Below are positions 19,051-26,921 of a DNA stretch of 64,000 nucleotides, piece by piece (position 1 is the first letter of the stretch; every line of letters starts with the position of its first letter). A program made the translations under genes and the position numbers. This DNA is from Vallicoccus soli (GTDB lineage Bacteria > Actinomycetota > Actinomycetes > Motilibacterales > Motilibacteraceae): assembly GCF_003594885.1 (NCBI RefSeq), contig NZ_QZEZ01000002.1, forward strand, positions 372,001 to 436,000. Direction: 5' to 3'. The notes beneath the pieces are model-generated. The model was given only the letters and a program-made list of their open reading frames with translations, was not told the origin of the DNA and made no database searches.

Positions 19051-19242
19051 GCGTCGTGCTGGGCTCTGGCCATGGCAGCGGCACCGGACCCGGGCGAGGC
19101 GTGGTCCGCCGAGCGGTGGGCCGAGGCCGAGCGGCTGGCGGGCGAGGCCGCGGAGCGCCGCTCGTCGGGCGGGTTGTCGCGGTGCGCGCCGTCGGTCGCG
19201 GTCCTGGAGCTGCTGCTCGACGCGGAGACGCCGGACGACGCC

Positions 19243-19278
19243 GCCGCCCACGCCGCCCACGCCGCCCACGCCGCCCAC
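19243..19278 (+). repeat. Four tandem copies of a 9-bp unit inside the HNH pseudogene
   Basis: GCCGCCCAC is repeated four times without variation and encodes a short Ala-Ala-His tract. It is prone to slippage and is not part of the conserved domain. Confidence 0.85.
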
Positions 19279-19320
19279 GCCGAAGCGCACCCCCGCGCGA
19301 CAGCGACCCCCACCGAACCG

Positions 19321-19415
19321 CCGCGATCATGCGCGAAGGGGGCAACACCCGACCAGCACGCGACGGGACCCGACCACGAGACCGGGGATGCGGCCCCCGT
19401 CGTGCATGGTCGCGG
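19321..19415. repeat. REP-like inverted repeat inside the HNH pseudogene
   Basis: Two 22-bp arms (19321-19342 and 19394-19415) face each other, matching at 19 of 22 positions, around a 51-bp centre. Each arm contains CGCGATCATGC or the close variant CGCGACCATGC, the same core as the repeat array at 26754-26872. The encoded stretch is not conserved DUF222 sequence, so the element looks inserted in frame. Confidence 0.65.
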
Positions 19416-20163
19416 CCCTGGGTATGCGCCGGAGGACCTGCTGCTGGGTCAGCACCGCCTGCACGCCCTGCGCACCTGGGCCCTGCACGCCCTGGAGGAC
19501 CCCGCCCTGCCGAGCGTGCACGGGCAGCGCGTCGTCATGCACGTGCACGTCGACCTGCACACCCTGCTCGGCCTACGCTCCGAACCCGCCGTCCTCACCG
19601 GGCCCGGCCTCGGCGAGGGCGCCGGGATCCTGCCCGCCCACCTCGCCCGCGCGATGGCCGCGGACACCGAGTGGCAGCGCTGGGTCCACGACGACGTCAC
19701 CGGGCACCTGCTCGACCACGGCGCACCCGCTACCAACCCACTCAGCCCCCGGGACCACATCCTCGCCAGCTCCCACGTGTGCGCGTTCCCCGGCTGCGCC
19801 CGCCCCGCCTCCCGGACAGAGCTCGACCACGTCCACGAGTGGCACGACGGCGGACCCACCAGCGCGGCGAACCCTGCGGCCGCTGTGCGCCCGCCACCAC
19901 GGCCAGAAGTCCTTCGGACGATGGCGCAGCGAAGCCGGCCCTGCCGGGACGACGAGCTGGACCAGCCGCACCGGACGCCAGCACACCACCGGCCCCACCC
20001 CCAGCCCCTCCACACCCCTGCGCGCCACCACCGCCCGCCGGCAGCATGCCAAGGCCCACCGCGCCTGACCGGGCCCCGACGACGGCCCGCCCTGCTGAGC
20101 GACCCGGCCCTCCCTTGTCACCCCGCCACAACCGGGCCCCACCCGGTGCCGGCCGGGGCGGAC

Positions 20164-20169
20164 TAGGGT
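20164..20169 (+). promoter_or_regulatory. -10 box TAGGGT of the leaderless fasR gene
   Basis: TAGGGT lies 7 nt before ATG 20177, giving a leaderless transcript. It overlaps the terminal TAG of the drifted HNH reading frame. Confidence 0.55.
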
Positions 20170-21496: not shown

Positions 21497-22696
21497 GTGC
21501 TCGTGATCCTCGCGCCCGGCCAGGGCGCCCAGACGCCCGGCTTCCTCGCTCCGTGGCTCGAGGTCCCCGGCTTCGAGGACCGCCTCACGTGGCTGTCCGC
21601 CGCCGCGGGCCTCGACCTGGTGGCGCACGGCACGACCTCGGACGCCGAGACGATCCGCGACACCGCGGTGGCGCAGCCGCTCATCGTCGCGGCCGGCCTC
21701 GTGTCCCTCCTGGCCCTCTTCCCGCACCCCGGCGACGCGTTCGGCCAGGTCGGCGCGGGCGCCGGGCACAGCGTCGGCGAGATCACCGCCGCGGTCGGCA
21801 CCGGGGTCCTCAGCGCCGAGCAGGGCATGGTCCTCGTCCGCGAGCGCGGGCGCGCCATGGCCGCCGCGAGCGCCACGACCCCGACGACGATGGCTGCGGT
21901 CGTCGGCGGCGACCACGACGAGGTCCTCGCCGCGATCGAGCAGCACGGGCTGACCGCCGCGAACCACAACGGGACGGGGCAGGTCGTCGCCGCGGGCACC
22001 GTCGCGCAGGTCGACGCGCTCAGGGCCGCGCCGCCCGCGAAGGCCCGGGTGATCCCGCTGTCCGTCGCGGGCGCCTTCCACACGCACCACATGGCGCCGG
22101 CGGTGTCGCGGCTCGAGCGCTACGCCCGCGCCATCACCACGCACGACCCGCGCACCCGGCTGCTGAGCAACCGCGACGGCGCCGTCGTGCACGACGGCCG
22201 CGACGCCCTCGACCGCATCGTCGGGCAGGTGGCCAGCCCGGTCCGCTGGGACCTCTGCATGCGCACCATGGCCGACCTCGGCGTCACCGCCGTCATCGAG
22301 GTCCCGCCGGCCGGCACCCTGACCGGACTGGTGAAGCGCAACCTCCCCGGCGTCGAGACCCTCGCCCTGAAGACCCCCGACGACCTCGACGCGGCCCGGC
22401 GCCTCGTGCAGGAGCACGGCACGCCGTCGCCGCTGTCGACCACCCCGACGTGGCGGCTGCTCGTCGCGCCGAGCGCGGGCACGTGGCGCGCCGCCGGCAC
22501 CACCCCCGGGGCCACCCTGGAGCCGGGCGCCCCCGTCGGCGTCGTCGCGACGCACCGCGACGAGCACACCGTCAGCGCGCCCCACGGCGGCACGGTCGTC
22601 GAGCTCCTCGTCGAGGACGGCGACCCCGTGCGGCCGGGGCAGCCCCTCGTGCGGCTGCACCCCGAGGCGGCCCACCCCGAGGCGGTGCTCGCGTGA
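21497..22696 (+). CDS. fabD: Malonyl-CoA:ACP transacylase with a C-terminal biotinyl/lipoyl-like domain
   Basis: Transfers malonyl from CoA to the acyl carrier protein for type II fatty acid synthesis. Residues 1-~310 are a normal FabD: LAPGQGAQTPG, the nucleophile in GAGHSVGEITAA, RERGRAM and the histidine in GAFHTHHM. Most FabD proteins stop near 310-320 residues; this one has 399. Residues ~319-388 read like a biotin/lipoyl hammerhead domain (LVAPSAG, then VSAPHGGTVVELLVEDGD, PGQPLVRL), but the usual Met-Lys-Met position reads ATHRDE, without lysine. GTG 21497 gives the family N-terminus. It is first in the fab operon and overlaps fabH by 4 bp. Confidence 0.93.
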   Translation: MLVILAPGQGAQTPGFLAPWLEVPGFEDRLTWLSAAAGLDLVAHGTTSDAETIRDTAVAQPLIVAAGLVSLLALFPHPGDAFGQVGAGAGHSVGEITAAVGTGVLSAEQGMVLVRERGRAMAAASATTPTTMAAVVGGDHDEVLAAIEQHGLTAANHNGTGQVVAAGTVAQVDALRAAPPAKARVIPLSVAGAFHTHHMAPAVSRLERYARAITTHDPRTRLLSNRDGAVVHDGRDALDRIVGQVASPVRWDLCMRTMADLGVTAVIEVPPAGTLTGLVKRNLPGVETLALKTPDDLDAARRLVQEHGTPSPLSTTPTWRLLVAPSAGTWRAAGTTPGATLEPGAPVGVVATHRDEHTVSAPHGGTVVELLVEDGDPVRPGQPLVRLHPEAAHPEAVLA

Positions 22697-26732: not shown

Positions 26733-26753
26733 CCCCGGCGGCGCCGGGCAGGC

Positions 26754-26806
26754 GCATGATCGCGGCCGGGGACCTGCAGGACTGCAGCCCCCGGCCGCGA
26801 TCATGC
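26754..26806 (+). terminator. 18-bp hairpin after the fab operon, built from the repeat core
   Basis: Arms 26754-26771 and 26789-26806 are perfectly complementary over 18 bp around a 17-nt loop. It begins 21 bp after the last gene of the operon and probably ends its transcript or protects its 3' end. The right arm contains the first copy of the 12-bp unit of the array that follows. Confidence 0.65.
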
Positions 26807-26872
26807 AACTCCCCGCCCGCGATCATGCGACCGCCCGGCCGCGATCATGCGACCGCCCGGCCGCGATCATGC
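26795..26872. repeat. Four-copy array of CCGCGATCATGC at exact 22-bp spacing
   Basis: CCGCGATCATGC occurs at 26795, 26817, 26839 and 26861, with 10-bp spacers of two kinds (AACTCCCCGC and GACCGCCCGG, the latter twice), then AACTCCCCGC again after the last copy. An inverted copy lies at 26754. The same core occurs in the REP-like element at 19321-19415, so it belongs to a dispersed family. It lies between convergent genes and is non-coding. Confidence 0.85.
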
Positions 26873-26921
26873 AACTCCCCGCCCGCGCCCCCTGCGGCCC
26901 CGCGGACCAGGGCGGGGTCCG

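Follow-up and report, generated by a model that had tools for sequence, protein, structure and literature searches.

Tandem 22-bp arrays at gene ends in Vallicoccus soli: a dispersed extragenic repeat family with a putative DNA recognition module

What kind of element repeats a short word at a fixed step just behind the fab operon of Vallicoccus soli? In the window, as we call the whole 64,000-nt stretch of DNA that was analysed, fabD, fabH, acpP, fabF and an accD-type carboxyltransferase gene (PF01039; 25317–26732, plus strand), the last of the operon, lie upstream of a convergent intergenic gap of 189 bp (26733–26921, delimited by gene calls and domain matches), on the other side of which stands a DUF3145 gene (PF11343; 26922–27416, minus strand). 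Within 26754–26872 this gap holds five exact copies of the 12-mer CCGCGATCATGC, one of them inverted (26754–26765, minus strand) and four direct (26795–26806, 26817–26828, 26839–26850 and 26861–26872, plus strand) at a step of 22 bp. In the register of the consensus unit, which ends in GATCATGC, they form an array of four 22-bp units (26785–26872, plus strand), and the trailing spacer AACTCCCCGC (26873–26882, plus strand) amounts to a partial fifth unit. Only two spacers are used, A (AACTCCCCGC) and B (GACCGCCCGG), in the order A-B-B-A. Sequence and folding also reveal an 18-bp hairpin, built on the inverted copy and the first direct one, with arms at 26754–26771 and 26789–26806 and a 17-nt loop. 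In none of 60 simulated 64-kb sequences that matched the window in dinucleotide composition did any 12-mer reach four copies within 120 bp. The first-pass annotation had correctly read the position after the fab operon, the four identical 12-mers at 22 bp, the two spacer types and the inverted copy with its hairpin; its description of the core as nearly palindromic around GATC was overstated, as GATC itself is palindromic but the unit is asymmetric. Separately, we observed that a FabD-type protein encoded at 21497–22696 of the window has a C-terminal biotin/lipoyl-like domain (PF00364, E 1.5e-6), and that the usual MKM motif was not seen in its translation.

Genome-wide (4.04 Mb in 20 contigs, the sole genome of the genus examined), CCGCGATCATGC occurs in 80 exact copies against 0.8–2.5 expected from Markov models of order 1–4; this count, proposed earlier as a check, excludes chance frequency. 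The pattern read backwards has no match in the genome, a control that is weak because this pattern contains the rare CTAG. Pairs of GATCATGC spaced exactly 22 bp number 87, and in the genome stretches analysed we counted 203 units, grouped into 46 arrays of which the largest has 19. A step of exactly 22 bp separates 146 of 157 successive units (93%); nine steps measure 21 bp, and such steps have been amplified in one array, which shows that the copies need not keep strictly to one helical phase. The earlier suggestion that two-turn phasing places every copy on the same DNA face is therefore compatible with the spacing but not diagnosed by it. A scan for periodicity alone found 50 period-22 arrays in the stretches analysed, 43 of them with the core, against mostly 2 to 6 arrays at each other lag that is not a multiple of three; since these stretches had been chosen mainly for holding the motif, the scan serves as a control on the period rather than as a census. 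Neighbouring arrays may be opposed, back to back in six places (gaps of 9–35 bp) and face to face in three. At one locus (L064, 324–1582) about 1.2 kb reads N in the genome sequence.

As regards location, genes were called with a codon model trained on this genome, without curated annotation. Nine of the 80 exact 12-mers fall in called genes and 71 outside them, and, as 22 is not a multiple of three either, we ruled out a protein-coding repeat. Among gaps that hold an array of at least three units, 21 of 32 are convergent, compared with 19 of 137 in an unbiased sample of gaps (Fisher p 1e-8). The copies are thus extragenic and the arrays concentrated in convergent gaps, which bears out the location at operon ends that the first-pass annotation had asked about. 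The arrays in convergent gaps have mixed orientation (10 sense and 14 antisense to the nearer gene), and in tandem gaps six of eight are sense.

The consensus unit is the asymmetric 22-bp word ASCYCCCCGGCSGYGATCATGC, in which the module CCGGC-N2-Y-GATCATGC is nearly fixed across arrays. Spacers are alike inside one array and differ from array to array, as expected if each array grew locally. Compared with the consensus of their own array, interior units have changed at 2.1% of core sites and at 11.8% of those in the first half of the spacer, a contrast that is inflated because the loci were found through the core. The family is dispersed over the genome at gene ends, mainly in convergent gaps, grows head to tail at each locus and keeps its module nearly fixed; the number of copies would most likely grow by slippage or unequal recombination. 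Head-to-tail copies, variable unit number and local homogeneity with array-specific spacers are shared with minisatellites (VNTRs), and a neutral minisatellite family, produced by slippage only and recognised by no factor, could be envisaged. We consider it very unlikely, as here a single module, less changeable than the spacer, is common to dozens of distinct loci, and slippage alone leaves unexplained both this dispersal and the fact that other genera have the core too, as described below. CRISPR was rejected as an identity, the spacers being not unique and forming part of the repeat unit. Searches of Rfam gave only sub-threshold matches at the array, which we judged to be chance, and tRNAs elsewhere.

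Absence of the array from closely related strains, with no other copies, had been named by the first-pass annotation as evidence against its reading. The order was sampled by five genomes, i.e. this one and four relatives (G001, G002, G003 and G004). None of the four relatives has a GATCATGC pair at 22 bp, and the 16-mer dialect CCGGCSGYGATCATGC, with 67 copies here, has 0–4 in each of 245 other genomes of the class. The array form is thus missing in related genomes, but the same core is present there in hairpins. The gap adjoining DUF3145 in G001 and G003 contains a hairpin whose outer stem is GATCATGCA. In G004, CCCCGTGATCATGCACGTCCTGGG and its complement make up 46 inverted pairs with short loops, many of them close to the 3' end of a gene, and inverted pairs with another interior, GATCATGCACATGTGGCGAGTTGTCCACAG, number 14 in G003 and four in G001. 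In a sample of 246 genomes of the class, inverted pairs with outer GATCATGC(A) and interiors of their own were found in 13 genomes from eight families, six of which have at least two pairs in a genome; the backward control, again a weak one, matched in one genome. The mention of GCATGATCGCGG-like repeats in GC-rich actinobacteria in the first-pass annotation is therefore borne out as far as GATCATGC is concerned, with dialects that differ from one genome to the next. Two side observations concern these relatives. The hairpin that G002 has in its gap adjoining DUF3145 (L103) lacks the core (TTGGCACGATGTGCCTCCTTGCCAAT...ATTGGCAAGGAGGCACATCGTGCCAA). Inside hairpins of G001 and G003 (L121, L122, L126 and others), TTGTCCACA and its complement resemble the actinobacterial DnaA box, which may hint at a link to DnaA.

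The array has no match in plasmid and phage collections, and a G003 hairpin has none in the plasmid collection. A core pair with CGG was found in a collection of 84,980 species, from which our own genome may have been left out, in three single MAG contigs that we judged to be chance. The exact 12-mer CCGCGATCATGC was not found in the literature searched, a search that lay mostly outside subscription papers.

A short conserved core, genome dialects and inverted pairs near gene ends are also what a DNA-uptake-type signal would display. Known uptake sequences have a thousand or more copies and are common inside genes. Here only nine of 80 exact copies are genic, whereas uptake sequences are over-represented inside genes, and copy numbers are low; we regard this reading as extremely unlikely.

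Could the repeats instead act in RNA, as 3'-end signals whose hairpins end transcription or protect mRNA? The window hairpin begins 22 nt past the accD stop codon and folds as RNA at -48.9 kcal/mol (z -8.1; as good in 0 of 200 shuffles), the hairpins of G004 lie near gene ends, and arrays are enriched in convergent gaps. Inspection of the sequence found no T-run after the window hairpin, and an intrinsic terminator, which consists of a GC-rich hairpin and a T-run behind it, was rejected on that ground. Direct repeats make up most of the arrays and display no consistent excess of structure, the majority folding no better than shuffles, with L058 as an exception, and the mixed orientation in convergent gaps speaks against a signal carried by the transcript. 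Over the eight inner bases of the G004 hairpins, arms of one hairpin differ by 1.67 and arms of different hairpins by 1.81, i.e. there is no detectable covariation (p 0.14); the same holds, at lower power, for G003. Hairpin pairing as such is not visibly maintained; the word of the unit is. The lack of covariation in the arms and the unremarkable folding of the direct arrays favour a DNA site over an RNA structure, and we hold the RNA reading to be quite improbable.

Among known repeat systems the closest relatives in distribution are REPs, which are short and extragenic, usually exceed 100 copies per genome, occur in genome-specific dialects as single, paired or clustered copies between convergent or tandem genes, and form two superfamilies distinguished by a terminal GTAG or CGTC tag (PMC2817692, PMC3733652 for the general properties; PMC3733652 for the tags). 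The present family resembles them in its extragenic location, mainly in convergent or tandem gaps, in its high copy number (203 units in 46 arrays, besides the 80 exact 12-mers), in its genome-specific dialects and in its single, paired and clustered copies. It differs in that the REP unit is an imperfect palindrome and ours is asymmetric, that neither GTAG nor CGTC is present in the consensus unit, and that REPs are associated with a RAYT (a Y1 transposase), for which no counterpart was detected: PF01797 has no match in any of the five genomes sampled from the order, with control genomes positive, so that the search for such a transposase proposed by the first-pass annotation came out negative. 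The earlier REP-like or protein-binding reading accordingly fits the high copy number, the extragenic location and the operon ends but is not supported in its RAYT or its palindromic unit. BIME units are regularly spaced and alternate in orientation, whereas here they run head to tail at a fixed 22 bp, with opposed arrays in nine places. E. coli BIME-2 is reported to bind DNA gyrase (PMC2817692, PMC3733652); BIME-2 shares with our arrays the clustering of tandem repeats at operon ends and differs in being built of alternating palindromic rather than direct asymmetric units. In conclusion, the repeat family has the distribution of a REP family and lies outside those REP families that have been described.

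A further resemblance is to MITEs and REPINs (PMC3116915), whose inverted pairs of a shared end sequence recall the pairs in the relatives and a second form of the repeat in this genome; the differences are that no transposase was found here and that the window form is a direct array. This second, MITE-like hairpin form was observed at L052, L059, L062, L065 and L070 and has the same core (GCCGYGATCATGCGCGGATGGCGC ... GCGCCATCCGCGCATGATCRCGGC); L052 and L070 share 94% identity over 240 bp, and L062 shares flanking sequence. At 19072–20166 of the window we also noted an open reading frame whose match to HNH is weak and falls short of the cut-off (E 0.022). It contains the exact 12-mer at 19321 and, inverted and with one mismatch, again at 19404; the surrounding DNA can be aligned with L070 (67.6% over 299 bp). 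In G004, GATCATGC copies, single or loosely spaced (about 40–60 bp), occur near DUF222/HNH genes (L142, L145, L152, L155, L161 and L163), and six of the ten such genes inspected have GATCATGC within about 2.5 kb, mostly upstream. None of seven DUF222/HNH genes in G003 has copies nearby, nor do the DUF222 matches of our own genome, and DUF222/HNH genes were rejected as a mover, their counts not tracking the repeats. Those extragenic repeats for which a mover has been identified are, to our knowledge, dependent on RAYTs.

These observations bear on the possibility of a selfish, non-autonomous element of REP or MITE type, with GATCATGC as the end read by a putative non-RAYT mobilising enzyme, its location at gene ends due to insertion or survival, and its arrays without use to the cell. 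Dispersed copies, dialects specific to a genome and the MITE-like form with the same core and shared flanks are in its favour, and a module that served such an enzyme merely as its target would likewise be expected to have a nearly fixed core. Nevertheless, no candidate enzyme was found, PF01797 being absent in the order, and neat head-to-tail growth at 22 bp is not a transposition product; we consider this explanation somewhat unlikely.

The reading we prefer, to which we give about an even chance, is that an extragenic family of REP/BIME-like type extends across the genome, with the window array as one of its loci and other arrays likewise at operon ends, and that the family's conserved module is a putative DNA recognition site. 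CCGGC-N2-Y-GATCATGC would be the site of a sequence-specific DNA factor that may also be present in other actinobacteria; the recurrence of the same core in relatives with other flanks and interiors lends this support. More tentatively, the factor, conceivably DNA gyrase or a nucleoid-associated protein, might bind the arrays at operon ends, perhaps cooperatively on one face of the DNA. By analogy with BIME-2 and gyrase in E. coli, as reported in the papers cited above, one may speculate that the bound factor relieves or insulates converging transcription.

As judged from sequence comparison, the same core word in differently built repeats of the relatives points to a protein that recognises the core. 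In its broadest form, which we think unlikely, the proposal is that GATCATGC(A) may be the target of one protein, DNA-binding or mobilising and not a RAYT, widespread in Actinomycetia and sustaining genome-specific dialects, here in the form of 22-bp arrays in helical phase at the ends of convergent genes. If true, a repeat type that combines a shared core with changing interiors and has no RAYT would imply that actinobacterial gene ends harbour a second system, and the shared word makes the idea testable, as one short DNA could serve as bait for the factor.
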